This document shows positions 9,514 to 58,371 of a stretch of 64,000 nt of DNA, one piece after another. The stretch covers positions 106,237,698 through 106,301,697 of the forward strand of contig OV050030.1 in assembly GCA_920105625.2 (NCBI GenBank). Reading direction: 5' to 3'. Source of the DNA: Clusia tigrina. Taxonomy: Eukaryota > Arthropoda > Insecta > Diptera > Clusiidae. Under the pieces are notes generated by a model. It had not been told where the DNA came from, made no database searches, and saw nothing but the letters and a program-made list of their open reading frames with translations. Both the position numbers and the translations under genes were made by a program. Every line of letters begins with the position of its first letter. Within the stretch, counting starts at the first letter, position 1.

Positions 9514-10007
9514 TAATGTAGATCGCCTCCTCGTGGTGCACTCTGGATAGCGCTAACTGGTCTATACCCCCCCCCCCCCCCGGCATCCGGTGCAACCTCC
9601 CTGTGGAGAGCATCTGATGTCAGACGGCACGACCCTATTCGTCCACGGACTACCCCCCAACAATCTTTTTATTTGATTGGGCTGGCGGGTGTGGCTTCTG
9701 GACCAATTACCACTGGGGTGAAACCCAGTGAGAACGGCTCCAGTTTAAGGTCACATCCGTCTCCGTCCCGTTAAAACCTTGGCAGGCCTCAAAGTACGTT
9801 CGATGTACGTCGTCATTTGGTTGACGATGTAGGTTTGGTTGAGACTAGCTCCCAATTAGCACTGGTCTGGCTCTGAGCACTCGCGCCCATAAAGACTTGT
9901 GCCAACCCTCGCATGGCCTCCCTGCATTTGCATAGATAACCATGGGACCAATAAGGTGACTACATATTCGTACTGAGATAGCGGCTTTGAGTGGGGACCC
10001 TTTTTGC

Positions 10008-11417: not shown

Positions 11418-14400
11418 CCTTCACCATTCCATGGCTGCCTCAGCAGCCCTGATCCTCCACCTGACTCAAAAAGGAGAGGAACTCATACTGGTCCAAGAAC
11501 CTTGGGTCGTAAATGATCAGGTTCGCGGACTCACTACAAGCGGATACCGCACAGTATTCGTGCAGGATCGAGGTAAACCCAGAGCCTGTATTCTCGTTAA
11601 GAACAATATTAACGCTCTTCTTCTTCACAGGTTTAGCGACAAGGATAATGTAGCCATGGTTATTTCCACCAACACCATGGCTATATGGATCGTCAGCAGC
11701 TACATGGCGCATGACCACGGGCTGACGCCGCCTCCGGATGCTGTAAGGCTACTGGTAGAGGAGGCTAATAGAAAGCGCATCCCGGTAGTCATCGGGGCCG
11801 ATGCCAATGCCCATCACGAGGTGTGGGGCAGCACGGATACCAACGAGCGGGGTGAGTCACTCTTTGATTTTATTATTACTAACGACTTAGTAATTACTAA
11901 CAGGGGGAGAGAGCCAACCTTCATTGCATCAAATAGAAGGGAGGTTCTCGATCTAACTCTTGGTAATAATCACTCGTCTCACCTTATTTCGAGCTGGCGC
12001 GTTCTGCAGGAATGCTCCTTCTCGGACCACTGTTACATCTGTTTTAGAATTGCGATCTCAGATACGTTAGATACGGCTGAGCGCAAAAGACACACTAACA
12101 GGAAAAGAACTGACTGGACACGATTCCAGACCATTATGGAGTCGGGCCTGCAGTCGACTCCTCCCACGATCAATAATCACCTCGATATAGATCGAGCGGT
12201 TGAAACCATTACAGCACTATTTAACTCTGCTGCCAAATCAGCCTGCAACTTCCCGAAACCAAGAGGAAAACCAAAACCCCCTTGGTGGAATTCGGAAATT
12301 GCCGAGCTACGAAAAGTATGTCGCAAGCTCTTCAACAGAGCCAAAGCCACTAATGACTGGCTCCCTTTCAAAGACAAACAAAGGGAACTCAAGTATATGG
12401 TTAGGAGATCCAAACGAGCGTCTTGGCGTGACTTCTGTGGCAACATAGAAAGCTCGTCCGAGACAAGTAGACTCCGGAGGATTCTCAATACCACCCCTCG
12501 GGCTCTGGAATGCATTCAGAGATCGGATGGTACCTGGACCGACTCTGAAACCGACACTTTGGACGCCCTAATAGAAACACACTTCCCGGGGAATGAAATC
12601 TTTGTGGATTGCAGGTCTTTTAACACCAACCACTCTTTAAGTCACTCAACCCAATTTCAATTGACCAACACGCATATCCAGTGGGCCATCAACAGCTTTA
12701 AGCCTTTTAAATCTCCCGGGCCTGATGGTATCATTCCCGCGGACATTCAGCACACTGCAAGTGCGGTTGCGCCCTGGCTACTGCATATTTACAATGCATG
12801 CCTAAGATGGTCGCACATTCCCATAAGCTGGAGAGAAGCTCGAGTAGTTTTCATCCCTAAAGCGGGAAAGTCGACCCACACCAAGCCTAAGGACTATAGG
12901 CCAATTAGCCTGTCCTCCTTTCTTTTGAAAACACTGGAAAGAGTCCTTGATATACATATCAGGAGCTCTATCAATTCCACGTGCTTTTCCAAATCACAAC
13001 ATGCCTACACTAAAGGCAAGTCTGTGGAAACAGCGCTTCACGTGCTCATTGAGCAAGTAGAGAAATCTCTTGCCAACAAAGAATATACCCTTGCAGTATT
13101 TCTCGATATAGAAGTGGCATTCAACAATATTTGTCCCTCCGCCATCACGAAATCCTTGGTAAACCTGAACCTGGACCCCAGCTTGGTTAGGTTCATCGAA
13201 CAGCTACTGAAAACACGCGTCATTAGCTCCTCAATAGGAAACGTACATGCTAAAAGGACTGTCAAGAGAGGTACTCCACAAGGCGGTGTGCTCTCACCCC
13301 TCATATGGAACTTGACAGTGAACACACTACTTAGGAGATTAGATCAGACCGGCTGCAACACTATAGCTTATGCGGACGACATTGCTATCTCTGTTTCCGG
13401 TAAGTATCTGTCAACACTATCAGAAAAGCTAAACTACACTCTTAGCATTCTGTCCCAATGGTGTCTCGAAGTTGGCCTAGATGTCAACCCTTCCAAAACT
13501 GAGGTCATGCTCTTCACCAGGAAGCACAAAATACCAAGTTTTGACCTACCCAAACTTAATGGGAACACGCTTAGCCTAAGCAATAGCGTCAAGTATCTAG
13601 GTTTGATCCTGGACCCTAAGCTCTATTGGAAAGCAAATTTGGCGGAGAGGGTACGTAAAGCCACGTGTGCTCTGTACTGCTGCAAGAGGGCCGTGGGTAC
13701 AACATGGGGCGTCCATCCTCGAACCATGTTCTGGCTCTATGCGGCGGTGGTTGAGCCGTACTTTCTCTACGGCGCTGTCTTCTGGTGGCCCGCTACCGAC
13801 AAGGCGGCGAACCTAAAACCTCTTGACAAGGTTAGAAGAACAGCAGCGGTTATGAGTACCACCTCCACCAAAGCTCTATTTGCATTCCTACATTGGTTGC
13901 CCACTAGGCTTCTGGTTAGGCAACAAGCAAAATGCTCGGCAACCAGACTCAATTCAATATCGCGTTGGACTAGACTGAATCTGGGCCACGCCAATATTCT
14001 GATGCAGGACACGCCCGTACAGGCGGACGTTGAAGTATGCGATGTGTTGATACGCATATTCACGGACAGTCAGGCGGCAGTCAAGTCACTGGCTGGTGTT
14101 TTCACTACCTCTAAGCTTGTACTCGACTGCCGCTCCTCCCTGAACGTCGTTTCAGGTAACTCACAAGTTCACATATGCTGGGTGCCTGGACATAGCGACA
14201 TTCCAGGAAACTGCGAGGCCGATGAATTGGCCAAAATAGGTACGCTACTCCCTGACATCTCCCCCTCCTTTGATGTAGGTGTCCCACTGGCCACGGTCAA
14301 ATGGGCCATAAAACATGACTACCTTGAGGCAGCTAAAAAAGCCTGGGTAAATGAACATACCTGTAGTGTTGCCAGACAAACTTGGAGCACTATCGACATT

Positions 14401-14715
14401 AGGCGTACTAGTCAGCTACTCAATATCAGCAGGAACTCCATCGGCACTATAATAAATGTGCTCACGGGACACTGCCTGATCGGGAAACACGCTGAAAGAT
14501 TAGCACTGCCCCACAATGACTTCTGTCGCAGCTGTGGCTCTGAGGAGGAGGAAGAAACAGTACTTCATCTCATGTGTCAGTGCCCAGCTCTGGCCAGGCG
14601 TAGATTAAAATTCCTAGGCTCATCTTTCTTCACTTCCTTAACCGAACTATCTTCCATCAACATCAAGGACATAGCCAGGTTCATTTCGGAATCACTGTGG
14701 TTCCCAAAATTCTAG
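11395..14715 (+). CDS. LINE ORF2: endonuclease, reverse transcriptase, partial RNase H
   Basis: This is a 1106-residue retrotransposition enzyme. Endonuclease (1-230): [28 protein letters not shown] and [10 protein letters not shown]. Reverse transcriptase (about 430-760): [22 protein letters not shown], motif [27 protein letters not shown] and catalytic AYADDIAI. RNase H (about 880-950): [12 protein letters not shown] and [18 protein letters not shown]. The first half of RNase H, which should bring the first two acidic residues, is missing; the sequence jumps from EVCDVLIR to IFTDSQ, so this domain is probably dead. A C-terminal knuckle (C-x2-C-x9-H-x4-C) is near 1043-1061. The ATG overlaps the ORF1 end, suggesting translation by re-initiation. 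Confidence 0.88.
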
Positions 14716-23383: not shown

Positions 23384-23572
23384 CAACAAGGATCACGAAC
23401 AAGAAGCAGCCGTCAGGACACCAGAAGCAGTCTACGGCCAACAGAAGCAGCTGTCAGGTCAGCAGAGGCAGTCTTCGGCCAATAGAAGCAGCCGTCAGGA
23501 CAACAGAAGCAGCCAACAGCCAAAAGAAGCAGCCACCAGGACAAGAGAAGCAGTCTGTGGCAAACGACAACA

Positions 23573-26709: not shown

Positions 26710-27065
26710 GTTTGCTGAAGAAATGCTGTTTGCAAAAGAAAATGCGAGAGTTTGAGTTGCCAGTTGGTAACTGATTTGTATAATTCCCAAGCAGGTTTTT
26801 TATATCATTTTTGTTGAGTGACATTTTTGACTACAATTTCGATTATTCTAATCTGTTTAAATATAATCTCTTTCGCTGAAAATTGATTCACAAATGGCTG
26901 CACGCTAGGATTCTATTACATTAGGATTACACATTACACATGTCTAGTGTGGCATTGTCGGATTGTGTCTTATGCATTGATTTACTCTGGATGTGTATCG
27001 TTTCCGTAGATAGATTTTGTGCTACACTACGTTTGCGCGCAATAATGCACACGCATTACAATATA
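26710..27065 (+). repeat. Unclassified interspersed repeat, copy 2
   Basis: It aligns with the reverse complement of 4560-4905 over most of its length and shares a conserved CAGGTTTTTTATAT core. It lies between the truncated BEL element and a gypsy LTR. Its class is not determined. Confidence 0.5.
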
Positions 27066-27270
27066 CTATTTTTTAATCTATATTCATAATTCTAAAGTGA
27101 CCCACGCATCCGTGTTATTAGTACCCGACACTAAAAATCTTTTGTCATAATATGGGTTTAAAGCGATCTTAGTTTGAGTGATGCTGTTAACTTCATGTTT
27201 CTGCGATTGAATTAAATTTTGTTCAATTACTTCATTAATATTGAAACGTGATAGCACAGTGAAATGTGAT

Positions 27271-27889
27271 TGCATACTTTTAGGATCCCATCTGGAGATT
27301 GAGAATGACTGCACCACCCTGTGTGTCAATTAGTCAAGACACAATCTATTCGAATAAAAGCTTCTTTCGTTGTAGAGATTGTGGTGTAAAGAATTATTTC
27401 GAAAGTAATAACTTCCTGAGCTGTGCATAAAGTTCTAGAAACATCGAGAAACTTCTAGTGTATTGTAGAAGTTTCCTCCTCGACCATTCGAAACTATAAA
27501 AAGCACAAGCCTGTGCAAAGTCGAAGACATTCGAACAGAGATCGTAACAGTGTGTACATCGTGCATTATAAATCGAAGCAGCAGTAGTTGTAATTCTGAG
27601 TTGCAAAGTGATGAAATTCATTATTAAATAAAGTGATGAAATTACTTATTAAATAAGGTGATTCATGTATTGTTAAATAAAGTGCAAATTGTAACAAAGT
27701 AAACTTTAAGCCTAATATTTAGTTTGTAAATTTCAATAATTAAATAAAGTTAGTTATTTTAAATTAACCAACGATTTTTTAATTACTACACGATCCAGTG
27801 GTACGAATCCGAGTACAGAGAGTTAGAGTAAATTGTCAGGAGGGCAATTTCGTAACAGAATAAATTGTCAAGAGGGCAATTTCGTAACA
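27271..27889 (+). repeat. Ty3/gypsy family A 5' LTR (copy 1)
   Basis: This LTR of about 619 bp begins near TGCATACTTTTAGG and ends GTAACA two bases before the primer-binding site. It is followed by gag on the plus strand. Partial LTRs of the same family lie at 36206-36515, 41425-41600 and 43399-43860. The U3 start is inferred from where the copies begin to agree and may be off by several bases. A TATA-like CTATAAAAAG is near 27495. Confidence 0.75.
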
Positions 27890-27891
27890 AT

Positions 27892-27909
27892 TGGTGTCAG
27901 AAGTGAGAT
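27892..27909 (+). promoter_or_regulatory. Primer-binding site, tRNA-Leu (copy 1)
   Basis: TGGTGTCAGAAGTGAGAT has one mismatch to the complement of the insect tRNA-Leu 3' end (TGGTGTCAGAAGTGGGAT). Copy 4 at 43379-43396 keeps the perfect match. Confidence 0.82.
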
Positions 27910-27928
27910 CGTGTATCTGTAATAAACA

Positions 27929-29160
27929 ATGGTTACATTTGAAAAACTAAGATTGGAGCAGCTCAAGAAGGAGCTTGAGCGCTTAAATTTGCATACACAA
28001 GGGCTTAACGTGGAGCTGCAGGTGCGATTAAGAAGCGCTTTAGAGGAGCAGGGTATAGACGTCGATAAGCATGAATTCCAATGTGAAGAGGCAACGATAT
28101 CTCGACACGATAAAAAACCGCACGAAGCTAACACGGGTAACTTTGACATGAGCGCACTCATCGGGGTAATGCGATCCTTCAAACAGGATATGGAGCAGCG
28201 AGAGGACGTAGAAAAAAGTGTGGAATCGCTCAAACAAGCTGTCAAAGAGGATATCAAGGAACAGTTACAACAAAATGCTCAAGCTGTCAAAGAGGAAGTC
28301 AAAGAGCAATTACAGCAGAGTGAAATACGACTTACTCAACTAGTGCAAAATAACTCACAGCAGATGAAAGAAATGTCCGAAATGGTAGACAGGAAGGTTT
28401 GTGAAATGACACGGCAAGAATCGTTCGAAAAATCTGTAGTACAAAGGCAGAACGCAACAAATAGAGCAAAGAATTTACCTACTACAGGAATGTGCATTGC
28501 CTGTACCAGCTTTATCCTCAATAAAACTGAAGCCTCCTACCTATGATGGAACCACGACATTTAGCGTCTTCAGAATGCAGTTTGAGACTACCGCTAGCAC
28601 AAATGGTTGGAGTGCTCGCGAAAAAGTGGCTGCATTAACCGTTTCGTTGAAAGGTTCTGCCGCTGATGTGCTTCAAACTATCTCAGAAAGTGAGCGAGAC
28701 TGCCATGAAAGCTTGATGAACGCCGTCCAGCACAAGTATAGTAGTCAACACTGGAAGCAGATGTACCAAGTAGATCTACGAACACGGGTACAGAAGAGTG
28801 GTGAGTCTCTACAACAGTTTACGGCGGAAGTGGAACGGTTGGGTCAGCTTGCCTTCCCAGGAGAAATTACTGAGAGGTGTATGATAGACACCTTTGTTTA
28901 TGGCATTCGGGATGCAGAAACAAAGCGTTGAGCGATAACAAATCCGAAAGCTACATATATGGAGACAGTAGCTAGCGCTTTAACTTCAGAGACAGCAGCC
29001 TTGGTGTGCCAGCCAGTATAGAGAGCCCGTCAGGTACAAGTCGACAGCGGACAAAGTTTCACGGGCAAATGCTTTACCTGCGGAGAGGTCGGACTCATGG
29101 CTCGTAATTGTCAGTCAAGACGGAAACGTTCTAGGTCACGCTCACCGGTAAGACCGCCAA
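27929..29160 (+). pseudogene. Ty3/gypsy family A gag
   Basis: The gag starts at ATG 27929 (MVTFEKLRLEQLKKEL) and is strongly helical, with coiled-coil-like E/K/Q heptads to about residue 160. After a frameshift near 28470-28500 the capsid-like frame 28497-28931 follows, with TFSVFRMQFETTAS and LQQFTAEVERLGQLAFPGE. A stop at 28931 precedes the nucleocapsid knuckle CFTCGEVGLMARNC near 29072, whose expected His is Leu. Copy 4 keeps the His (CFTCGIVGHMARDC), so the loss is specific to this copy. Confidence 0.8.
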
Positions 29161-29287
29161 TGCAAGTCAGATTCCAAAATAGGGAATCAGAAAATGTTGA
29201 TAAGCCGTCGACAAACTAGATGGAGGCAGTCTCGAGGGGCATGATCTGACTCCCACAACACGTAGCCCCAGAATCTTCGTTTCTCAG

Positions 29288-29668
29288 ATGCCACGGAAAA
29301 TCAACAGCCTAACTGTCGACAGCGTAGTAAATGGTAGAAAAATCGTGGTAACATTGGATACGGGTGCATCACATTCCATAATTAGAAGGGATCTCGTTTG
29401 GGGAATCGAGCCGCTTCTGGGAATAAGATTGCCTACGGCAACTAGAGATGATGCACCGGTACTGGGAAAAGTTACACGGAAAATCACTATCGGCACCACA
29501 ACAGTGACGCACGAGTTTGTAGTTTCGGATATTGTGGACGAATTAATCTTAGGTGTGGATTTTATGATTCGGAATGGATTCACCCTAGATTTGAAAAGGC
29601 GAATGTTGAAATATGCGAACACCGAAATATCGTTATCCGTTGGTGAGGATAAGTATGGAGGTATCTGA
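29288..29668 (+). pseudogene. Ty3/gypsy family A protease
   Basis: This retropepsin region has INSLTVDSVVNGRKIVVTLD, active site LDTGASHSIIRRDLV and the flap and C-terminal block DELILGVDFM. It is followed by spacer sequence in shifted frames (29700-29930) leading to the reverse transcriptase. A second copy is in the minus-strand fragment at 37663-37762, where DTGAS is mutated to DTCAS. Confidence 0.8.
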
Positions 29669-30076
29669 CAAGCCATTGTATCGCGGCGGACAAAAATCAG
29701 AGCAAATTCAGAGGCAGTTATATGGGCCGAAACGGACGGAGATATTGATAAAAACAAGTTGTGGGTTGTGGAGACATGAAAAATTTGCACTGGATGACAT
29801 CATAATTGAAAAAACCCCCCAGCAGAACAGAATGGTGCCAGTAAGAGTGGTCAATCTTGCAAATTCCGCTAGAACCATAGAGAAAGGATAGATAATTGGG
29901 AATTTGCCAGGCAATTTCGGCAATTGTAAACTGTGAGAGCCAGCCGCGAGACACAAAAAGTAAGATGCCAGCTGATAAAAAGGTACTGGACGATTTAACG
30001 AAAGAATGGAGTAAGGACTTATCCACAGAGCAGAGGAAGACTGCCAGCCAACTTTTGGCAAGACATTGGTCAGTAT

Positions 30077-30414
30077 TTGCTGAAAAGGGTAAAACGAAGG
30101 CAAACAAAGATGGTGAAACACACAATCAACACTGGTGATGCCAAACCCATTCGTCAAGCGTCAAGAAGAGTACCTCTGGCAAAGAGAGAAGAGGTGAATG
30201 TATTGCTGAAGGAAATGCATCAGAACAACGTCATTGGGCCATCAGCGAGCCCCTGGAGTTCTCCAGTGCCTTTAATCAAGAAGAAGGGCGGCTCCACATG
30301 TTTCTGTGTAGACTATCGAAAACTAAATGAGGTAACGAAAAAAGATAGTTACCGTTACCTCGCATCGATGATACCTTGGACACACATTCTGGTTCAAATT
30401 GGTTCTCAACGCTG
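30077..30414 (+). pseudogene. Ty3/gypsy family A reverse transcriptase, left half
   Basis: The fingers region of the reverse transcriptase is seen: IRQASRRVPLAKREEV, NNVIGPSASPWSSPVPLIKKKGG and FCVDYRKLNEVTKKDSY. The gene is interrupted at the 5-bp target (30410-30414) of a Transib insertion. The right half resumes at 33197. Confidence 0.82.
30410..30414. repeat. Transib target-site duplication, left
   Basis: CGCTG directly precedes the terminal CACAGAG. The same 5 bp are at 33197-33201. Confidence 0.88.
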
Positions 30415-30453
30415 CACAGAGGAGTATATCTAATATAAAGTCGATCAAAAGTC
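30415..30453 (+). repeat. Transib left terminal repeat (RSS-like)
   Basis: Heptamer CACAGAG is at 30415-30421, a 23-bp spacer at 30422-30444, and nonamer TCAAAAGTC at 30445-30453. The canonical RSS heptamer is CACAGTG and the nonamer is ACAAAAACC. Confidence 0.85.
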
Positions 30454-30689
30454 GATTTAAGAAATTTTTCCAAAGTCTCATTTTATATGTATGTTGTTAA
30501 AGTTTAATAAAGGCTACATCAGTAAACCATGACTTTCATGTCGTCATGTGCTTTTATCCAATCAAAACCACAGCCAGAACCTAGCTGCCACGTGCATCAT
30601 TTGTATTTGTTTATCCCTCCAAGTGAAACGGCATATTTCAAACGGTGTTTTTTTTTGTTTGCTTTTAGTGAAATCTTATAAAAGTTCAA

Positions 30690-33043
30690 ATGGAATCTGA
30701 AGAGGAAGGTATGTATTTTATTAAGTAATATTAATTTTATGTATTGCACTTTAGAAAATATCATTTTTCATCGAAAACATTCGAGACTAAAAGTGTTATG
30801 TTTTTTCTTTGAAACTCTATATTCAAAAGCGTTTTTGTGTATCACTTAAGTTCAATTAAGTTATGATTGTGTGTGTAACGTAAAACTTAGCTATTTTTGT
30901 TAATGTTCTTGAAAACAAAGTTCCCGCAAGTAATTGCCTTTTTTTATTTATCCAATATGACAAAAAAATTTTTTTCCAGAAAATAATTTTTTTCGTATTT
31001 TCATTTCAGAATTTCAAACAACGGTGAAATATATGACCAGAAAATCACTCTACGAAGTCTTGAAACAATGTTCGAAGAAGAAACTTGATGACAAATTTGT
31101 GTTCCTAGAAGACCATCTTAAAAATATTACCAAATGCCCTGAAAACCAGCAAGGTTCACTAAAACTTGTCTTAAATATCTTCAAGTTTCAATTTAAACAC
31201 AAATGGATGGCCGCAAATAACAAGATCGGTTTTTCAAGAAAAATGAACACTGGCTCAATACCAGCGTGAAAATACAGACCTGGACTGTAAAAAGGCCCGG
31301 CCGGCCACCAAAAAATTTTAAATACTCGAGTTCGCCAACGAAGAGGCGTAAAACAAAGGCTTTAAGAGAACAAATACCTTGCGATCAGTTAACATATGCT
31401 GCCCAAATGAGTCTGCGTGCTGAAGGACATAGTGACGCATCTAAAGTCTTCAAAAATATTCTTGATATGCCAGAAAAGTATAATAAGCTGAAACATATAG
31501 AAAAAGTGATACTCCAAAAAAGAACATTATCAAAAAGCATACTCCATCAGAAGCATTGTCATTTTTTGTGGAAGCTGAAATGACGAGAAATCAATACGAG
31601 GTAATTCAACAAGCGAACAAGAATATTTATCCTTGTTATTCACTTTTAAAGAAAGCAAAACTGGAGTGTTATCCACGAAAAGAGTCGATCAAATTCACAG
31701 AAACGTGTTCTGAAATTAACCTTCAAGATCTTCTTGATCACACGTCTATGCGGTTGTGTGAGTATTTAAATGAAGTCTTTGAAACCTTAAATGAAAACCA
31801 AAGAGACAATTTAGAGCTCATTTCAAAATGGGGATGTGATGGATCGCAACAACAAACATTCAAACAAAAATTCGAAAACAGTACAGATAGTGACGCAAAC
31901 ATTTTCCAGAGTTCATTTGTGCCCTTACGTCTCATATGCCATATTGATGACCAAAAGAAGATTATTTGGGAAAATCCAGTACCATCTTCTACACGATATT
32001 GCCGGCCAATACGTATCCGCTTTATTCGCGAAACTAAAGACATCACAAATGAAGAAATTCGCTATGTAAAAGATCAAATAAAGAACTTAAGAATGACTGA
32101 AATACCGAAAGCTTCAGGTGGTATACTTCAAATAAAGCACACATTGGCGCTTACAATGATCGATGCAAAGGTTTGCAATGCGGCGACAAACACGGCATCG
32201 ACTATGAGATGCTACATTTGCGGGAAAACGTCTAAAGATTTCAACAATCCAAATATAGAAACTATAGAAAACCCCGATGCTCTAAAATTTGGACTATCAG
32301 TATTGCACGCAAGGATAAGATTTTTTGAATCCTTACTTCATTTATCCTATAAATTACCCATCAAGAAATGGCAGGCGAGGACGCTAGAAGATAAAAAAAT
32401 TATGGCTGAAACAAAGCAGAAAATACAAAACGCATTCTAAGAGGAAATGGGACTGTTGGTAGATATTCCCAAAGCTGGTTTTGGAAATACTAATGACGGG
32501 AATACGTCAAGAAGATTTTTCTCAAATACTCAAACTTCGTCATCCATCACAGGAGTAGACATCAATCTTATTGAAAAATGTAATATCATTTTAGAGGCTT
32601 TGTCTAGTGGACACAAAATTGATACAAGAAAATTTGAAAACTTTGCAAAAGAAACAGCAACACTTTACATCGAAAGGTATGGGTGGTATCCAATGACGCC
32701 CACTATGCATAAAGTTTTGAGACATGGTGCCACAATAATCGACCATGCTATACTACCTATTGGTCAACTATCAGAAGAGGCAGCTGAGGCCCGAAATAAA
32801 CACTTCCGCACTTATCGCCAGAATTATGCAAGAAAGTTTTCCCGAGAAAGCTGTAACAGAGACGTTTTGAACAGACTTCTGCTCAGTTCTGATCCTTTGT
32901 TGAGCAGTATAAGAAAAAGGTTCAAAAAAAAAAGGAAGCCTTTCTCTAGCGAGACACTAAAACTCTTGTTATCGGAAGAAATTGACTTTAGAAATACTAA
33001 CAGTGAAGACGAGGATGAATGCAACGAAAATTTATTTAAATAA
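30690..33043 (+). pseudogene. Transib transposase (RAG1 core-like)
   Basis: The enzyme would nick and hairpin DNA at the element ends. A short first exon (30690-30708, MESEEE) is joined by a GT-AG intron (30709-31009) to an in-phase continuation. The segments are 31010-31269; 31266-31583, with GRPPKNFKYSSSPTKRR resembling the RAG1 nonamer-binding region; and 31556-32440. This last segment carries the first catalytic Asp in KWGCDGSQ (codon 31838), PSSTRYCRPIRIRF, the second Asp in LTMIDAKV (codon 32162) and a C-x2-C. The segment 32447-33043 has MHKVLRHGATII and the Glu block GQLSEEAAEARNKHFR (about 32774). Two frameshifts (near 31267 and 31550) and one in-frame TAA (32438-32440) disable it. 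AATAAA follows at 33098. Confidence 0.85.
30709..31009 (+). other. Putative intron in the Transib transposase gene
   Basis: The donor GTATGTAT follows GAAGAGGAAG, and the acceptor is a pyrimidine-rich TTTCATTTCAG. Joining keeps the phase with the downstream coding frame. The interior is AT-rich with stops in all frames. Confidence 0.6.
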
Positions 33044-33157
33044 TTCAACTGTATGTTCTTTTGTATTGTTCTTCTTTCCTATTTCTAGTGTTTTAAATAA
33101 AATATAAAGATCCTAAACTGCTTTTTATTATATTTTAAATCGATAAAAACAATAAAA

Positions 33158-33196
33158 TAATTTTGAGCAACTTTTATGATGAAATACTCCTCTGTG
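33158..33196 (-). repeat. Transib right terminal repeat (RSS-like)
   Basis: Read on the minus strand: heptamer CACAGAG (33190-33196), 23-bp spacer (33167-33189), nonamer TCAAAATTA (33158-33166). It shares GAGTAT at the start of the spacer and TCAAAA in the nonamer with the left end. Confidence 0.85.
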
Positions 33197-33556
33197 CGCT
33201 GGATATACAAAACGGATATTGGCAAGGAAAAGACAGCATTCAGTGCCGGTGATGGACTATGGCAATTTTTGGTGATGCCATTCGGACTGTGTAATCCACC
33301 AGCTACATTTGAACGCTTAATGGAACATGTGCTAAAGGGTCTCCACTGGAAAACGTGTGTTTTGTACCTAGATGACATCATCGTTATGGGAAAGGACTTC
33401 GAGGACCACTTGAAGAATTTGGAAGAAGTATTGATGCGATTAGGAGCTTCAGGGTTGAAGCTGAGCGCAATGAAATGCTCGTTCTTCAAGAAAGAAGTCA
33501 AGTACCATGGACATAAAGTCACAATGAAGGAGTACACACAGATACAGATAAGATAG
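33197..33556 (+). pseudogene. Ty3/gypsy family A reverse transcriptase, right half
   Basis: The palm of the reverse transcriptase resumes after the second CGCTG: LWQFLVMPFGLCNPPATFERLMEHVL, catalytic VLYLDDIIVMG and CSFFKKEVKYHGHKV. A small deletion or frameshift near 33215-33230 remains even when the Transib is disregarded. The gypsy sequence ends at about 33550, where an unrelated gypsy fragment in opposite orientation begins. Confidence 0.82.
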
Positions 33557-36060: not shown

Positions 36061-36205
<145 letters not shown>

Positions 36206-36515
36206 CTTCGATTAAAATGCCCGATGTACACACTGTTACGATCTCTGCTCAACTGTGTTCGACTTTGAATAGTGTGGTGGCTTTTATAACTTTCGAATAG
36301 TTTAAGTAGAAAATTCTACGCTATTTAAAAAGTTTCTGGATTATTCTAGAATCTTATATTCACCTCGATGGAAGTTTTTATTTTCGAGCATTATCCACCA
36401 TTGACAGGGTATTCTTGAGAAGTATTTTATTCGAATAGATAGTGTCTTTACTTATATACACACAGGGTGGCGCACTCATTCGCAAACTCCAGATGAGATC
36501 CTAAAAGTATGTGTT
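36206..36515 (-). repeat. Ty3/gypsy family A partial LTR (copy 2)
   Basis: This matches 43620-43860 and the U3 part of 27271-27889 on the minus strand. The end next to the TA repeat is lost. Confidence 0.78.
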
Positions 36516-36604
36516 TATGCTCTGGTCGAATTACGTGGACTGTAGATTTATCTTTTTCCCCTTTTTTTATTATCACATTAATTAATTTTTAACTTATATT
36601 AGAA

Positions 36605-37249
36605 CTATAGTAATCTTGGATGTTTGACAAAAAGACAATAAAGATGGTGGTTGAATTTTGTTCTCCTCCGAATTTCAGATCTGGTATCACAAAATCTTAT
36701 ATCACAACCGAAAATAGCCGTAGTTGGTGTTGTAGATGTTGTATCATGAGTTGCCGATCGGTTTGCCATTAGGAAGAGGGGTATGTGTTGGTCCCAATAT
36801 TTCTGGTTTCTTTCCACGACTTTCCTTAGGTGTTCCTCAAGCGTACGATTAAATCTTTCAACCATTCTACCGGATTGCTGGTGTAAAGGGGTTGTACAAG
36901 TTTTGCGTATGCCCATCAATTCACTAATTTCCCCGAATATCGCCGACTCCAAATTTCTGCCTTGATCCGAGTGTAACCAAAGGGAAGCTCCAAATCTGCG
37001 GACCCAATTATTGATAAATGCATCTGCAACGGTCTTGGCTTATTGATCAGGGCTGGGATATACTGCTGGCCATTTACTAAAATAGTCGATAATGACGAGA
37101 ACATATTTGTTGCCAGAATCACTCATTGGAAACGGAGCTGCGATGTCCATTGCAATACGATCAAATGGTGTTCCAATGCATTTTCCTCGGACCGCGACGG
37201 CTCGGTCCCCTAGCAGCTGTACATTTAGCACAAGCACTGATCCAGTCAA
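36605..37249 (-). pseudogene. Ty3/gypsy family A integrase (copy 2)
   Basis: This is integrase catalytic-core sequence in pieces. DRIAMDIAAPFPMSDSGNKY with the first catalytic Asp, then VIIDYFSKWPAVYP, lie at 37040-37249. After a frameshift, the ESAIFGEISELMGIRKT, PLHQQSGRMVERFNRTL block (with the catalytic Glu) is at 36605-36952. The second-Asp region lies in the shifted interval between. The copy is defective. Confidence 0.8.
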
Positions 37250-37462
37250 CTTCTGATTTCTGGCAACGAACCCATTAAAACCGTGTGTTAATTTTCTCGA
37301 CTGTTTTTGTTATTCCCAAATGTCCTCCGCTTGGCCCACTATGGTATTCCTTGAGAATGTCGCTTATTCTTGCCTTGGGTACCACAATCAAGTTATTCGT
37401 GTTTTTCCATCTTCGCTCTCCCATAGGCGGAAAATGCATCCATCTTGCAACTTTAAGCTATT

Positions 37463-37762
37463 TCATTGAGCCCAATATTCTTTAGTTACGGGACTTTCAA
37501 TCGAGATTTCATTCCAATCTGGTCGTTTTCCTTCTTCCGTACTTGGCACGATTTTTGCCAATTCTGGGTCATTTTGTTGTTCTTCTTTTATCTTCTCTGC
37601 AGTCCATTCTTCGTCTGGTAAAACAGCCATTAAGCGCCCATCGACTCCCCGAACGAGATCCCTTCTAATTATGGAATGTGATGCACACGTATCCAATGTT
37701 ACCACGATTTTTCTTCCATTTATTACGCTGTCGACAGTTAGGCTGTTGATTTTCTGAGCCAT
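37463..37762 (-). pseudogene. Protease joined to pre-integrase linker by deletion (copy 2)
   Basis: The open frame begins like the protease of copy 1 (INSLTVDSVINGRKIVVTLD) but breaks off after RRDLVRGVDG. It continues as the linker WTAEKIKEEQQNDPELAKIV, which in copy 3 lies between RNase H and integrase (about 40155-40320). All of RT and RNase H is therefore deleted in this copy, and DTGAS is DTCAS. The flank 37763-37850 is the end of gag. Confidence 0.75.
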
Positions 37763-37850
37763 CTAAGAAACAAAGATTCTGGGGCTACATGTTGTGGGAG
37801 TCAGATCAAGCCCCTCGTGACTGGCTCCATCTAGTTTGTCGACGGCTGAT

Positions 37851-37925
37851 GAAAAATTTGCATTATAATTGGAAAAACCCTCGAACAGAATACAGCCAGT
37901 AAGAGTGGTAATCTTGCAATCTTGC
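37851..37925 (+). pseudogene. Short gypsy family A fragment, plus orientation
   Basis: This matches the protease-RT spacer of copy 1 (about 29778-29860) on the plus strand, immediately beside the minus-strand copy 2. It marks an inversion breakpoint. Confidence 0.6.
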
Positions 37926-39507
37926 AAGACTGGTATTGCCCTCTTTACCAGAAGGAGAAAGCTTGATGGACTTATTCTGCCTACACTAAGAGGAGTCACT
38001 ATCCAGCTATCCAAGGAAATCAAATATCTTGGAGTCATCCTTGATAACAAACTTCTTTGGAAAACACATGTCGAACTGAAGACATCCAAAGCACTGTCAG
38101 TTTTCTGGCAGTGTAAGGGTGTTTTTGGTAAGACATGAGGTCTTTCCCCTAGTAAGGTCCTATGGATCTATATAGCTATGGTAAGACCTATTATCACCTA
38201 TACATCGATAGTTTGGATGAGCAGACTCTCTCTTGTAGGGGTCAAAAAAGCTCTATCAAAACTGCAACGTGCTGTGGCCATATGTTGTACCGGAGCATTT
38301 CCGACTAGCCCCGGCACTTGATGCTTTGGTGAATCTCCCGCCACTAAATGTCTTCATCCGTGGAGAGGCCGTTACGCTGCAGAGTGAAACATAGTGGCCA
38401 CTGGTACGGGGTTTACTCGATATTGGACGTCGGCGCCGGCACTAACATCAATTCTGCAATCCTGTCTATGCCGCCCCCGGACTCCATGTCGTCAACCGTC
38501 ATACTAGAAAAGCGGTACAATGTGTTGCTGCTAGAGGCTCGTTCCTGGTTAGATCCCGAGAACGAGCCCGGCAATCACTGCTGCCGTATTTTCACTGATG
38601 GCTCCACGACTGAAGACGGTTCAGGCTCTGGTGTCTTCGTGGAATCTTGTGGGACCCGTCGGTTCTTTGCCCTTGGTCTCCATGCGTCTGTGTTTCAGGC
38701 GGAGGTGTATGCGATACTTGAGGCAATGGACTTTATGTGGAAAACAGGTGGAAAGGCAAATCTATTTGTGTCTGCAGTGACAGCCAAGATGCACTCATGG
38801 CCTTGGATAGTCCTACCACCACTTCCACGAGTCAGGTCCTGCAAATCCAGGCTAAATTATGTTGGAAAACATAATAGTCTGACGCTGACTTGGGTACAGG
38901 GACACGCTGGCATTGCGGGTAACGAGACTTCTGTCTCTTTGGCCAGGATGGGCTCTGAGGCTGTTTGTATTGGCCCTGAGCCTGTTCTGCCACTCCCTTC
39001 TGCTGTCATCAAAGCCAATGCAAACAAGTGGGTTGTTTCGACCCACAAGTGAGCATGGCGGGCAGAGAGAGGCTGGGGATGGACGAAAATTATGCTACCT
39101 GTTATCTCTGACCAATGGTCGCGGTTCCTTCTATCTTTAGGCTGCAGGCTGTTGGTTGGCGTGATGACGGGGCACTTTCTATGGGGTAGGCACATGGAAA
39201 AGATTGGCATATCAGACAGTGCGCTGTGCCCAACCTGTGGAGAAGACGAGACGGCGGACCATTTCTTTTGCGTCTCTTTTGCTCGAATCAGGTTTGGGAT
39301 ATTTGGCACTGATGTGCTGAGGAGTGACCAACTTGGCTCCTTGGCACCATAGGATCTACTTCTATTTCTTCGGAGATCGGGTAGATTTAAAACAGAGTAA
39401 AATGGAACCTTAAGTGCAATACAATGGATATATCCGTAAGCGCAGCACTCTGTCTGAGTGCTGCGCATACTAGATTGTTCCGACAAAAAAAAAAAAAAAA
39501 AAAAAAA
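37926..39507 (+). mobile_element. 5'-truncated LINE copy with poly(A) tail
   Basis: This is the 3' part of the same LINE family as 58229-63489: the end of RT (GIALFTRRRKLDGLILPTL, EIKYLGVILDNKLLWK), RNase H (IFTDGSTTEDGSGSGVFVE, WVQGHAGIAGNETSVSLA) and a C-terminal cysteine motif. A run of 23 A at 39485-39507 ends it. Several frameshifts and stops are present. It is flanked by gypsy sequence on both sides, so it inserted there or was carried along. No clear target-site duplication was found. Confidence 0.85.
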
Positions 39508-39508
39508 G

Positions 39509-40127
39509 GGAGTTGGCAAGTTCATGAGCTACGCAGCTTCTTGGGTATTTGCAACTGTTACAAACGCTTTATTCCAAGCTTGGCAGACGTGGCTGGTAGT
39601 CTACATGCATTAATGAGGAAAAATTGTCCTTTTGAGTGGAAGAGCGAACAGGAGAAGGCATTCAACAGATTGAAAGAGCTATTGTGTACAGCTCCGATCC
39701 TTACGTATCCAATTCCTGGCGAAAAATTTATTTTGGATACAGATGCAAGTGGCTTCGGGATTGGAGGTATCCTGTCGCAAGTTATTGACGGACATGAAAG
39801 AGCAATAGCCTACTTCAGCAAGATCTTATTAAGCCAGAGCGAAATTACTGTGTAACACGGAGAGAACTTTTGGCGGTTATGCAGCACTTTAACAAGTACT
39901 TGTATGGACAAAAGTGCTTGTTGAGAAAGGATCACGCTGCTCTGCGCTGGCTATTACTATTCAAAAATCCCGAAGGTCAGGTTGGGAGATGGATTGAGAG
40001 ACTCGAAAGCTACGATTTCACAATAGAACATCGCAGAGGTGGAAGCCACGGGAATGCTGATGCATTATCACGACGCCCTTGCAGTATGGAATATAAGCAC
40101 TGTTCTAAAGCTGAAGAGAAAGAATGA
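39509..40127 (+). pseudogene. Ty3/gypsy family A RT end and RNase H (copy 3)
   Basis: HELRSFLGICNCYKRFIPSLADVA is the RT connection region. RNase H follows with FILDTDASGFGIGGILSQV and, after a stop at 39855, MAVMQHFNKYLYGQ, then WIERLESYDFTIEHRRGGSHGNADALSRRP, the end of RNase H. Expected next to the RT end of copy 1 at 33556, so copies 1 and 3 may once have been one element. Confidence 0.8.
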
Positions 40128-40154
40128 GTAGTCGATGTGCGCTTAATGGCTGTT

Positions 40155-41412
40155 TTACCAGACGACAGATGGGCAGATGGACAGCAGAGAAGATAAAAGA
40201 AGAGCAACAAAATGACCCAGAATTGGCAAAAACCGTGACAAGTAAGAAAGAAGGAAAACGACCTACCTGGAATGAAATCTCGACTGAAAGTCCCATAACT
40301 AAAGCATATTGGGATCAATGAAATAGCTTAAAGTTGCAAAATGGATGCATTTTCCGCCTGTGGGAGAAGATGGAAAAACACGAAAAACTTAATTGTGGTA
40401 CCCAAGGCAAGAATAAGCGACATTCTCAAGGAATACCATAGAGGGCCAAGCGGAGGTCATTTGGGAATAACAAAAACAGTCGAGAAAATTAAAGCACGGT
40501 TTTAATGAGTTGGTTGCCAGAAATAAGTAGTTGACTGGATCAGTACTTGTGCTAAATGTACAGCTGCCAGGGGACCGAGCCGTCGCAGTCAGGGGAAGAT
40601 GCATTTATACCACTTGGAAGCAATTGCAATGGACATGGCAGGTCCGTTTCCAATTAGTGATTCCGGCAACAAATATGTTCTTTTCGTAATCGACTATTTT
40701 AGTAAATGGCCAGAAGTATATCCCATCCCCGATCAAGAAGCTAAGACCGTTTCAGATGCATTTATCAATAATTGGGTCTGCAGATTCAGAGCTTCCCTTG
40801 GATTACACTCGGATCAAGGCAGAAATTTGGAGTCGGCGATATTCGGGGAAATTAGTGAATAGATGGGCATACGCAAAACTCACACAACCCCTTTACACCC
40901 GCAATCCGGTGGAATGGTGGAAAGATTTAATGGTTAATGGTACACTTGAGGAACACCTAAGGAAAGTCGTGGACAGAAACCAGAAATATTGGGACTAACA
41001 CATACCCCTGTTCTTAATGGCGTACCGATCGGCAACTCACGATACAACACCCACAACACCAGCTAAGGCTTTTTTCGGTTCTGATATAAGATTACCTCCA
41101 GATCTGAAATTCGGAGCCTACTCATCTATGGAAGTTTCATGTAGCAGTTATGTAGCTGACAAACAAAGACAGTTTAATGAAATTCATGGAAACATCAGAA
41201 AGCGCACACAACTGATGAGTGACAAAATGAAAGCCAGATATGATGTACGAGCAAACTCTAAGGGATTTCAGGAAGGGCAGCAAAGGAGAAAGGGATTATC
41301 GCCACAACTGCAAAGAAAATGGGAAGATCCTTATAAGGTGATAAAGCGGATCAACGATATACCGCATCCAGTTTGCGAGAAATGTCAGGAGCAAATTGAA
41401 AGTCGTTCATAA
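40155..41412 (+). pseudogene. Ty3/gypsy family A integrase (copy 3)
   Basis: The linker WTAEKIKEEQQNDPELAK at about 40175 precedes the integrase core (AIAMDMAGPFPISDSGNKY, VIDYFSKWPEVYPIPDQEAK, SLGLHSDQGRN) at 40599-40862. The C-terminal part 41017-41412 has YRSATHDTTPTTPAKAFFGSDIRLP and the basic RKRTQLMSDKMKARYDVRAN. Frameshifts and stops separate the pieces, and the Glu block is out of frame near 40900. Confidence 0.8.
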
Positions 41413-41424
41413 GGAGACGCTATC

Positions 41425-41600
41425 CCCTTATAAAGGTTACAGTTCATTTTCGAGAACATTCTTTACACCACTATCTCTACAACGAAAGAAGCTTTTATTC
41501 GAATAGATCGTGCCTTGACTAATAAACATACAGGGTGATGCACACAACCTCAAACTCCAGATGGGATCCTAAAAGTATACAATCACATTTCAGTATGCAA
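41425..41600 (-). repeat. Ty3/gypsy family A partial LTR, U3 part
   Basis: The reverse complement matches the first ~175 bp of the copy 1 LTR (CTTTTAGGATCCCATCTGGAG ... TCGAATAAAAGCTTCTTTCG, with substitutions). As the 3' LTR it belongs to copy 4 on its right. Confidence 0.72.
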
Positions 41601-43281
41601 TCACGTTTCACTGCCCTCCGCTTTATCTTGTTCGTCCCGAACAAAGACAGTACTGCAACCTTTAAAAGGGGATAGCCTCTCCAAATGAACGACTTTCATT
41701 TTGCTCCTATCACCTTCCCAGTGTGTTTGCAGTTTTGGCGATAATCCCTTTTTCCTTTGCGGATTATGAAGCATATCTAGCTGCCCTTTCTGAAATCCCT
41801 TAGAGTTTGCTCGTACATCATATCTGGCTTTCATTTTATCACTCATCAGTTGTGTACGATTTCTGCTGTTTCCATAAAGTTCAATAAATTGTTCTCGTTT
41901 TCCACCTAAACAACTGTTGCATGAAAGTTCTGTAGACAACTCTTTAGTCCATTCTTTCGCCAGATGGTCGGGTACTTTTTTTTAGCTCGAATCTTCCTTT
42001 TCTTTTTTACAATTGCTGAGATTGCCTGGCAATTTCCGCAATAGTTTTAGTGGTATTTTGAAATATTATGTTGATTCCCATGCCATCTAAGAAACGAAGA
42101 TTCTTGGGCCATCTGTTGTGGGAGTCCGATCATTTGCCGGCCTGACAATCTTTTCCGATCCCCTATTTCGGACTTTCTTTCACTTTGCCAATCTTAATAG
42201 AGGGTGTGTTGCATAACGTTTCCGTGTCAACTGACAATCACGAGCCATGTGCCCCACAATACCGCAGGTAAAGCATTTCGCCGTGAAACTTTCTCCGCTT
42301 TCGACTCTTACCTGACGGGCACTGCATTCTGGCCGACACACCAATGCTGCTGTCTCTGAAGTTAAAGCGCTAGCTACTGTCTCCATATATGTATCTTTCG
42401 GATTTGTTATCGCTGAACGCTTTATTTGTGCATCCCGAATGCCATAAACAAAGGTGCCTATCATACACCTCTCAGTAATTTCTCCTGGGAACGCAAGCTG
42501 ACCCAACCATTCCACTTCCGCCGTAAACTATTGTAGAGACTCACCACTCTTCTGTACCCGTGTTCGTAGCTCTACTTGGTACATCTGCTTGCGATGTTCA
42601 CTACCATACTTGCGCTGAACAGCATTCATCAAGCTTTCATAATAGTCTCGCTCATTTTCTGAGATAGTGTGAAGTACATCAGCAGCAGGCACATTTCAAC
42701 AAAACGGTTAATGCAGGCTCTTTTTTACGAGTACTCCAAATATTTGTGCTAGCGGTAGTCTCAAACTGCATTCTGAAGACGTTAAATGTCGTGGTTCCAT
42801 CATTGGTAGGAGGCTTCATTTTTATTGAAGATAAACCTGGCATAGGCAATGAGCCTTCCTACAGTAGGTGAACTCTTTGCAATAATTCGTTCTGCTTTAG
42901 CTCGTTCACAATGAATTTTTGTTCTACAAATTTTTTGAACGAATCCTGCCGCGCCTCAATTTCAAAAACCTTCCTGTCTACCATCTCGGACATTTCTTTC
43001 ATCTGCTGTGAGTTCTTTTCCACTAGTTGAGTAAGTCGTGCTTCCCTCTGCTCTAACCTCTGCTGCATCTTCTCATCGGCTGCTTGAGCATTTTGTAGGA
43101 ACTGCATCTGTATTTCACCAATAAGTGCACTCATGTCAAAGCTACCAGTATTAGATTCTTGCGGAGTTACTTCTTGTCGAGATGTCGTTGGCTCTTCACA
43201 TTGGAATTCATGCTCATCAACGTTTATACCCTGCACCTCTAAAGCGATTCTTAATCGCAGCTGCAGCTTCGCTTTAAGCAA
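41601..43281 (-). pseudogene. Ty3/gypsy family A copy 4: gag plus integrase end, pol deleted
   Basis: On the minus strand the gag N-terminus (43281-42859, E/Q-rich helices) leads through capsid fragments to 42515-42180, with EWLGQLAFPGEITERC and an intact knuckle CFTCGIVGHMARDC. Sequence then jumps, with short gag-protease boundary pieces near 42060-42120, to the integrase C-terminus (41939-41601: RNRTQLMSDKMKARYDVRAN, GLSPKLQTHWEGD). Protease, RT, RNase H and most of integrase are missing. Confidence 0.78.
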
Positions 43282-43378
43282 TTGTGTTTACAAATTTAAG
43301 CGCTCAATTTAAGCGCTCCTTCTTGAGCTGCTTCAATCTCAATTTTTCAAATTTAGCCATTCTTTATAAGAATACACA

Positions 43379-43396
43379 ATCCCACTTCTGACACCA
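43379..43396 (-). promoter_or_regulatory. Primer-binding site, tRNA-Leu (copy 4)
   Basis: On the minus strand TGGTGTCAGAAGTGGGAT is a perfect complement of the insect tRNA-Leu 3' end with CCA. It lies two bases inside the LTR edge. Confidence 0.85.
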
Positions 43397-43398
43397 AT

Positions 43399-43859
43399 TG
43401 TTACGAAATTGTCCTCTTGACAATTTATTCTGTTACGAAATTGCCCTCCTGACAATTTATTCTAACTCTCTGTACTCGGATTCGTACCACTGGATCGTGT
43501 AGTAATAAAATAATCACTGGTTAAATAAAAATAACTTAATATTAGGCTTAAAGTTTATTACAATTTGCACTTGATTTAATAATTAATTTCATCACTTTCC
43601 AAATCACGTTTTCAAATACTGCTGCTTCGATTAAAAGGCCTGATGTACACACTGTTACGATCTCTGCTTAACTGTGTTCGACTTTGAATAGTGTAGTGGC
43701 TTTTATAGCTTTCGAATGGTTGAAGTAGAAAACTCTACGCTATTCGAGAAGTTTCTGGATTATTCTAGAATCTTATATTCACCTCGACTAGAGCATTATC
43801 CACCATCCACAGGGTGTTGTTGAGTAAGCTTTGATTCGAATAGATAGTGTCTTTACTTC

Positions 43860-47227: not shown

Positions 47228-48170
47228 CGAGGTGTGATCAAAAACCCGTTATTTTCAAATTTCGTGAGTTACGTATGTTCGATGTTCGCAATTTTTTTCT
47301 GTTATGTTGGTACACATGTCTGTTATATATGTTGGCAATACCAACCATTTTGGATTGTCAGTTTGTTTTTGACAGATAAAAAGGTTAGTCGTGTTTTGGT
47401 GTGCTCTTCGATTTTGTACTATTCGAAAAAATGAATCAAAGAAACTGTATTCAGTTTTGTGTAAAAAATGAAATTAAATGCGCAAGGATATTTGAAATGT
47501 TGACTGTGGCCTTTGGCGAGTCTACTATGAGCAGAACACAAGTTCAATTGTGGTATAACCGGTTTAAGGAAGGCCGAGAAGATGTCAATGACGATGCTCG
47601 TCCTGGTCGCCCGAGCACGTCAACAACCGATGAAAACATTGACGCAGTGAAGAAAATGATTTTGGATAATCATCGAATCACTATCAGAGAGGTTGCTGAT
47701 GATGTTGGCATATCGTTCGGCTCATGCCAAGCAATTTTTACGGATGTTTTAGGCATGAAACGTGCGGCAGCGAAGATTGTTCCAAAATTGCTAAATTTTG
47801 AGCAAAAACAACGTCGCATGGACATCGCTCAGGAGCTGTTTTTGGCCAAAAACAAAACCGTTATCATGCCTCAACCACCGTATTCACCGGACTTGGCCCC
47901 CGCTGACTTTTTCCTCTTTCCAAAACTGAAGACACCGATGAAAGGAAAGCATTTTGCTACGATTGAGGAGATAAAAGAAAAATCGAAACAAGACTGTTGG
48001 CGATACCAAAAAAAGCGTTTCAGAAGTGTTTCGAGGATTGGAAAAAACGCTGGCATAAGTGTATTATATCTGAGGGGAATTTCTTTGAAGGGGACAAGAT
48101 AGTTGCTGATGAATAAATAAATACTTTTTGAAAAAATTGAAAATAACGGTTATTTTTTTATCAAACCTCG
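47228..48170 (+). mobile_element. Internally deleted mariner element
   Basis: A 943-bp element lies between TA dinucleotides (47226-47227 and 48171-48172). Inverted termini start CGAGGT(G/T)TGAT and continue into a shared CCGTTATTTTCAA block. A full-length mariner is about 1.3 kb; the missing part falls inside the transposase gene. With both ends present it could be mobilised only by a transposase supplied from elsewhere. Confidence 0.9.
47431..48102 (+). pseudogene. mariner transposase, catalytic core deleted
   Basis: The ATG at 47431 opens MNQRNCIQFCVKNEIK, the first helix-turn-helix. REDVNDDARPGRPSTS is the GRPS linker, and REVADDVGISFGSCQAI is the second helix-turn-helix. After MDIAQELF the sequence jumps to LAKNKTVIMPQPPYSPDLAPADFF, so the segment with the first two catalytic Asp residues (about 120 residues) is missing; only the last Asp remains. 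A frameshift near 47995 scrambles the C-terminus. The product, 223 residues instead of about 345, would keep the DNA-binding domain. Confidence 0.88.
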
Positions 48171-50279: not shown

Positions 50280-50485
50280 AAGCGTGTAGATTTTACCAAG
50301 AACTGTATAGACAAGGATGATAATTTTTGGGCCACTGTTATGTTCAGCGACGAGAACAAGTTTAATTTGTTCGAATGTGATGGGAAACAAAGGGTGTAGC
50401 GCAAGAACAATCAAGAATTATTGCCACAAAATTTGCTTCCAACGATCAAACATGGCGGTGGTAATGTCATGGTCTGGGGTTGCAT
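50280..50485 (+). pseudogene. Tc1 transposase catalytic part, inverted
   Basis: DFTKNCIDKDDNFWATVMFSDENKFNLF contains the first catalytic Asp region of the DDE domain. After a stop come [21 protein letters not shown]. This is the plus-strand half of the scrambled gene. It ends at the same bases where the minus-strand half ends. Confidence 0.8.
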
Positions 50486-50856
50486 GTCGGCTTTTTTCTG
50501 GGCACACGGCTATGAAAATTCGCATCTCTCAGCACACTTCGGACTGTTTCTGAATGAATTGAGTCAATGGCACTCAATTCCAGGCTTTTAGCTATTTCCA
50601 CGGCGGTGGTCCTCGGATTTTTTTTCACTTCTCCCATAATCAGGCGTTTAACGCGTGGCGTTACTTTCAATGGACGACCGTTCCTTGCCTTGCTTTGCAA
50701 GCATTTTGTGTGGTTGTAGTTTTTTATAACTGTTTGCACACTCGCCTTTGAACGCCCAACCAATTCTCCGATTTCTCGAAGAGATTTTCCACCGGTGCGA
50801 TACTTCATAATGAGTTGGCGCACTTCTATGCAGATTTCCTTACCCGTTTGGTTCAT
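50467..50856 (-). pseudogene. Tc1 transposase DNA-binding part
   Basis: The ATG at 50856 opens MNQTGKEICIEVRQLIM. The paired-type helix-turn-helix region includes SLREIGELVGRSKASVQTVIKNY, the GRPLKVTPRVKRLIM linker and [13 protein letters not shown] of the second helix-turn-helix. [14 protein letters not shown] ends the homologous part, beyond which the frame enters the inverted segment. The frame is otherwise uninterrupted. Confidence 0.82.
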
Positions 50857-51150
50857 TTTTGCCAATTTACGCGCTTTTGTTACAAAAAAATTTATGTATC
50901 TCAACTTTTCCCATGTAACGGTATATTTTTAAAAACGCTCACTATAATTTGTAGCACTGTTTCGATTTCAAGAATTTAGAAATTGACCGTATATAGACTT
51001 TTCTGTGCATTAAAAATGGGTTTTGCTAATTTTTATTACAAAATCCTTTGTAAAACATAATTATTGCTTAATTTTTATTAATTATTTTCTGTTTGAATTA
51101 ATTTCATGTACATTTTATTCCGATAGCATGTATATATTGTCCAGAACTAG

Positions 51151-56359: not shown

Positions 56360-56470
56360 TGTGCAGCTTACGTTCACGTACCCTCCGTCCGAGCCACAAT
56401 AATTCAAAAACGAAAACTAATACTTAAATTAAGTTTCTTTTATCATTAAGAATACATGGAACAGTGTTAC
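56360..56470 (-). other. lin 5' UTR segment with splice acceptor
   Basis: On the minus strand a T13-AG acceptor (AG at 56471-56472) precedes GTAACACTGTTCC, suggesting a non-coding upstream exon and an intron. A short upstream ATG (56456, ATG-TAT-TCT-TAA) lies in this leader. Confidence 0.5.
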
Positions 56471-58228: not shown

Positions 58229-58371
58229 GTTTGTTTGTTTTTTTTTTTTTTTGTCGGAAGAATCTAGTAAGCGCAGCACTCAGACAGAGTATATATCCAT
58301 TGTACTGCACTTAAGGTTCCCTTTTACTCTGTTTTAAATCTACCCGACTACCAAAGAAGTAGAAGTAGATC

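Follow-up and report, generated by a model that had tools for sequence, protein, structure and literature searches.

A decayed, exactly bounded Transib transposon in Clusia tigrina and its relatives in the same genome

What kind of element occupies positions 30415-33196 of this stretch of Clusia tigrina DNA (64 kb, hereafter the window), and what can it add to the Transib transposons already described? In excerpts of PMC4411706, PMC8355894 and PMC7204232, Transibs are one-gene elements whose RSS-like ends start with CAC; they are flanked by 5-bp duplications, and their transposase is related to RAG1. RSS-like ends, 5-bp target-site duplications and kinship to RAG1 are already published for these elements, and the novelty here is a new copy only. 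We regard it as practically certain that this element is full-length but inactive and belongs to a Transib family of low copy number, inserted at CGCTG in what seems to be the reverse-transcriptase gene of a retrotransposon.

Ends, boundaries and siblings of the element

The Transib insertion is single and 2,782 bp long, with termini that are identical over 13 bp (CACAGAGGAGTAT), and the letters directly outside the left end (30410-30414) and the right end (33197-33201) are CGCTG in both cases. Read inwards, the left TIR (30415-30453, plus strand) runs CACAGAG-GAGTATATCTAATATAAAGTCGA-TCAAAAGTC, and the right TIR (33158-33196, minus strand) CACAGAG-GAGTATTTCATCATAAAAGTTGC-TCAAAATTA, each with a 23-bp spacer and each with the same layout in siblings. 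The heptamer, spacer, nonamer block and duplication that an earlier note on this DNA had described can thus be read directly in the sequence. An exact CACAGAGGAGTAT occurs at only two sites in the window, both of them termini of the element, and allowing two mismatches adds a single match, which is the chance level. Inverted 12-bp pairs with equal 5-bp flanks were absent from five of five windows shuffled in 3-base blocks, a control limited by the fact that such shuffling destroys AT runs; in the unshuffled window 116 pairs pass, and among the 12 listed, the other 11 are AT runs.

How closely do these ends resemble those of the RAG system? Left and right ends agree at all of the first 13 bases and at 28 of the first 39, and share a second block at positions 23-36 (12 of 14 bases equal), a level of agreement reached by chance in 0.055% of shuffled ends and 0.035% of interior segment pairs (20,000 trials each). 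The bipartite structure of the ends is well supported, and their resemblance to the vertebrate nonamer is modest: against the consensus letters of the RSS, the heptamer scores 6/7 at each end and the nonamer, at spacer 23, 6/9 on the left and 5/9 on the right. In shuffled ends, the chance of such scores is 0.00035 if exactly 23/23 is demanded, and 0.016 if 12 or 23 (±1) is accepted on either side. The 23/23 register depends on where the nonamer is placed, and lies just outside the symmetric spacers of 20-22 bp which an excerpt of PMC8355894 gives for Transibs, alongside asymmetric 12/23 ones. Of the proposal that the termini are 23-RSS-like, the layout stands, but the weight placed on the likeness does not, with a moderate nonamer here and, by eye, no good nonamer at 23 bp in a second Transib family of the same genome.

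The exact boundaries are borne out by other copies. A search of the assembled host genome (1.21 Gb in 666 contigs) with the core piece of the transposase returned at least 125 scored matches from 1778 first-look candidates, and, leaving aside the window copy, the four most similar (L021-L024, 95-98% protein identity) were fetched with their flanks. Each of these siblings starts with CACAGAGGAGTA and ends in the inverted repeat of it, with a single mismatch in one sibling, within perfect target-site duplications (CACCG, CGGCG, CGGAG and CATCG); they measure 2,764-2,778 bp, and the window copy and the four siblings are 97.7-98.8% identical in all 10 pairs, gaps excluded. A query with the leftmost 300 bases of the element found 16 matches in the assembly, 15 from base 1 and one from base 2; when the two lists are compared by eye, 11 of these 16 ends stand far from any core match listed, and are probably internally deleted or truncated copies. 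The search for siblings that had been suggested earlier was hence fruitful, and with equivalent end bases in all four siblings and 15 of 16 left ends beginning at base 1, positions 30415 and 33196 hold as the boundaries, with no differing boundary among the four copies fetched. As to whether the ends are functional, past function is the better supported part of that claim, because several copies carry the same ends in different targets; present function may be surmised.

The transposase gene and its kinship

The interior encodes a transposase in pieces, all on the plus strand, and for both core pieces the top match is HzTransib, the Transib transposase solved from Helicoverpa zea (PDB 6pqn, with five more entries). 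The core piece (31487-32437) matches it with an E-value of 2.7e-52 and the C-terminal piece (32441-33043) with 8.6e-53 (182.3 bits), together covering residues 9-301 and 304-483 of 497, and so upholding the kinship claimed for the frames at 31-33 kb. The aligned pieces contain the Asp, Asp and Glu blocks that had been noted, with Asp codons at 31838 and 32162, a CxxC from 32210, an HxxxxH from 32708 and a Glu codon at 32786; we take these two Asp and the Glu to be the catalytic residues.

Upstream, a first coding exon is predicted at 30690-30708, with start and donor letters that recur unchanged in three of four siblings, followed by a predicted GT...AG intron of 301 bp (30709-31009) whose donor and acceptor letters preserve the frame at the junction; alternatively, translation could start at a downstream in-frame ATG. 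The N-terminal coding piece (31010-31266), for which Pfam matches are at chance level only, gives way within 31221-31266 to a second frame (31221-31580), and this in turn changes within 31487-31580 to that of the core piece. A premature TAA (32438-32440) separates the two core pieces, the last of which ends at a TAA and is followed by an AATAAA polyadenylation-like signal (33096-33101).

The second-frame piece contains RPGRPP from 31293, and according to excerpts of PMC9435367 the nonamer-binding region has a GRP motif in each of the two Transib subgroups. The motif is conserved in four of four siblings (L002-L005), and is found in the longest frame at 11 of 19 loci (L002-L020) when the plus strand is scanned; six of the eight loci lacking it (L009, L010, L011, L015, L016 and L020) match on the contig minus strand, and were probably unfairly tested. 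Taken together, the motif, its position, that report and its recurrence suggest that this piece may correspond to the nonamer-binding domain of RAG1. Comparison with solved structures gave chance-level matches (best E 0.017, a ribosomal protein), and the RAG1 domain is absent among the eight matches listed. Predicted structures have a mean pLDDT of 57.4 for the GRP-bearing piece and 35.6 for the two core pieces, a quality too low for them to be of use.

Two frame changes and one stop make the gene broken, as the earlier note had it. Two siblings read through all three places in single open frames (660 and 664 codons), so the three breaks are lesions of the window copy rather than introns; the longest frames of all four siblings (L021-L024) continue past the position equivalent to the TAA at 32438. 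The two long frames stop about 20-30 codons short of the end of the last piece of the window copy, and look intact, without being proven so. Could the breaks instead be errors of assembly, and the window copy be intact? This would be compatible with our explanation of the element, and the good preservation of the remaining protein speaks for it. However, the other two siblings, L023 and L024, have breaks as well, at positions of their own (their longest frames have 503 and 575 codons), and in the second family of this assembly all 12 copies measured have an open frame of 714 codons, from which we gather that this assembly rarely breaks frames at random; we consider such errors a very improbable source of the breaks. 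A crude ratio of nonsynonymous to synonymous change ranges from 0.47 to 1.82 in the 10 pairs (core, 499 codons), with only 4-6 synonymous codons behind each value, a number too small for a verdict on selection.

The other question of identity is whether this might be a RAG-like transposon, comprising a RAG1L and a since lost RAG2L, instead of a Transib. RAG-like transposons are alike in CAC ends, 5-bp duplications and a distantly homologous transposase, and in excerpts of PMC7204232 are set apart by a RAG1L-RAG2L pair, where the window element has one gene. The C-terminal piece does also match lancelet RAG1L (E 8.4e-06), but with 29.1 bits, against 182.3 for HzTransib, and with RAG1 chains it finds no significant match (E 0.74 or worse). 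The siblings are of about equal size, and neither their length nor the frames and Pfam matches of the window element point to a RAG1L-RAG2L pair. Frames of at least 150 aa inside the element are the two core pieces only, whilst one further such frame, on the minus strand, straddles its right end; no Pfam match above chance was obtained for this frame and smaller ones, seven further frames of 61-178 aa in or across the element having been compared. All this leaves the RAG-like alternative with a negligible probability. A host gene domesticated from a Transib, for which the retained catalytic and zinc-site residues might speak, is just as hard to credit, given three breaks in the gene, intact ends and duplication, and siblings dispersed at other sites.

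The Transib reading is thereby confirmed: with a homologous transposase in a single gene, a DDE triad, a 5-bp duplication, inverted ends starting with CAC and repetition in the genome, the element is an exactly bounded, decayed member of the known Transib superfamily, and was correctly identified at the outset. The comparison with HzTransib bears this out, and that with the Pfam profile of RAG1 (PF12940) stays at 17.9 bits, below the cut-off of 25, as expected for a Transib. As was also expected, no relative was found in prokaryote, virus and phage collections. HzTransib itself, which has TIRs and a 5-bp duplication according to an excerpt of PMC1852546, measures 3518 bp against the 2,782 bp of the broken window copy, and the latter has about 180 extra upstream codons and the predicted intron relative to the solved chain. 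Both would belong to Transib Subgroup II, in which symmetric as well as asymmetric ends occur (PMC9435367, in part). Compared with vertebrate RAG1 and its RSS, the window copy has in common the CAC heptamer, an A-rich second block, the DDE core, CxxC and HxxxxH; it differs in its 23/23 register (12/23 in vertebrates) and in having no RAG2.

The insertion site

The element plus one CGCTG amounts to 2,787 bp, a multiple of three, and excision in silico yields SNWFSTLDIQNGYWQ in one frame. Across the restored junction there is a weak match to RVT_1 (profile positions 58-81, E 0.044, below the cut-off), which adjoins the RVT_1 match of the 3' flank (profile positions 95-205, E 2e-20). The 5' flank alone has no Pfam match, and stops and frame changes interrupt the flanking gene near the insertion; for these reasons the empty-site argument is a modest one, backing the total length of the insert and not its exact phase, for which the evidence is in the CAC ends and the siblings. 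The restored motif is weakly like that of another retroelement in the window (5/12, E 0.22). From these matches, there is modest support for the interrupted gene being the reverse-transcriptase gene of a retrotransposon, presumably of gypsy type. Self-comparison of the flanks near the site gave 7 and 12 matches elsewhere (12-23 bases long, E up to 10) and no second copy of the flank.

How might the element have arrived here? A transposase supplied by an intact relative would bind both RSS-like ends, nick at CAC, form hairpins on the flanks and excise the element; strand transfer would follow at a 5-bp staggered CGCTG within the reverse-transcriptase gene, and gap repair would leave the CGCTG duplication. 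Nicking, hairpin formation and strand transfer are known from HzTransib and RAG biochemistry, and we infer the same steps for this copy. The gene may have decayed after insertion, or may have been damaged earlier and the element moved in trans, an order of events likewise open to inference.

Other Transib families and neighbouring features

The window copy itself confirms known features of Transib, and the genome is more useful than the copy, since it brings together several Transib families that differ in age. Frames of 714 codons, at 48% identity, occur at 14 places among the core matches listed; 13 were fetched, of which 12 proved to be complete elements by the end search (L027-L032, L041-L044, L046 and L047) and one (L045) gave none. 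All 12 are 3,182 bp long with matching 5-bp flanks, and differ from one another by 0-3 mismatches in 66 pairs. Near-identity of copies at different targets suggests that this family transposed very recently, and a recently mobile sister family is the more interesting point than the window copy. The ends start with CACAGTG, the textbook RSS heptamer, and by eye 32 of the first 33 bases are equal on left and right. The 714-codon frame lacks the GRP motif. In one copy (L029) it aligns with residues 2-480 of the HzTransib chain (E 3.8e-126) from its own residue 182, so this family and that of the window copy share about 180 residues that extend the protein at its N-terminus. All five duplications in the window's family have C as first and G as last letter; in the second family the first letter is C in 10 of 12 and the last is G in all 12, in line with the preference of Transib for CG-rich targets. 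A near-uniform family with open frames and an RSS heptamer offers natural material on the end features that a RAG1-like transposase needs.

A third type is represented by L026 (2,824 bp, CACAGTGGTCGA ends, CGACG duplication), and the same end search found no ends for L025. On contig C1 (348.82-348.84 Mb; L033-L035), 11 core matches about 2.05 kb apart form a tandem array of 383-386-codon frames, the units being 97.8-99.8% alike among the self-matches listed. The 386-codon frame of a unit contains both Asp blocks and the CxxC, stops before the HxxxxH and Glu block, and has an acidic tail; single copies related to it are found at L037-L040. Neither in L033-L035 nor in L037-L040 did the search find CAC ends flanked by a 5-bp duplication. 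Shortened transposases act as regulators in some other transposon systems, and it is conceivable, if unlikely, that this host holds a still mobile CACAGTG family, with its intact 714-codon transposase, beside amplified truncated proteins that may regulate it. If true, truncated Transib proteins without the catalytic Glu, 11 copies neighbouring in an array and others dispersed, could regulate a mobile family.

A separate group lies on contig C4 (51.01-51.04 Mb, in part L036), where five core matches with 364-codon frames are spaced about 7.2 kb apart; the unit copies of L036 are 99.7% alike, and it contains one CAC-ended pair (2,823 bp, CGTCA duplication).

The window is rich in other repeats. 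The 5' flank of the element (27000-30414) has eight more matches in the window, seven inverted and one direct (68-92% alike), and 27242-30029 and 36198-43857 form a nest of retroelements. Positions 37918-39507 and 58230-59835, the latter overlapping a reverse-transcriptase frame, make up a 1.6-kb inverted repeat (92% identity), and two tandem arrays of 41-bp units stand at 513-668 and 23401-23556, their units seeming by eye to be mutual reverse complements. On the plus strand, overlapping frames of 485 and 1111 codons (9960-14715) make up a non-LTR retrotransposon that is possibly intact; the longer frame matches endonuclease and reverse transcriptase, and RNase H below the threshold. Transposase pieces of mariner-like (47389-48102, plus strand; HTH_48) and Tc-like type (50467-50928, minus strand; HTH_Tnp_Tc3_2) are also present. 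A long open frame on the minus strand (53570-56416), which together with the retroelements would fit an insect and probably a fly, matches the N-terminal (PF14694, E 9.8e-91) and C-terminal (PF14695, E 4.6e-17) domains of Lines.
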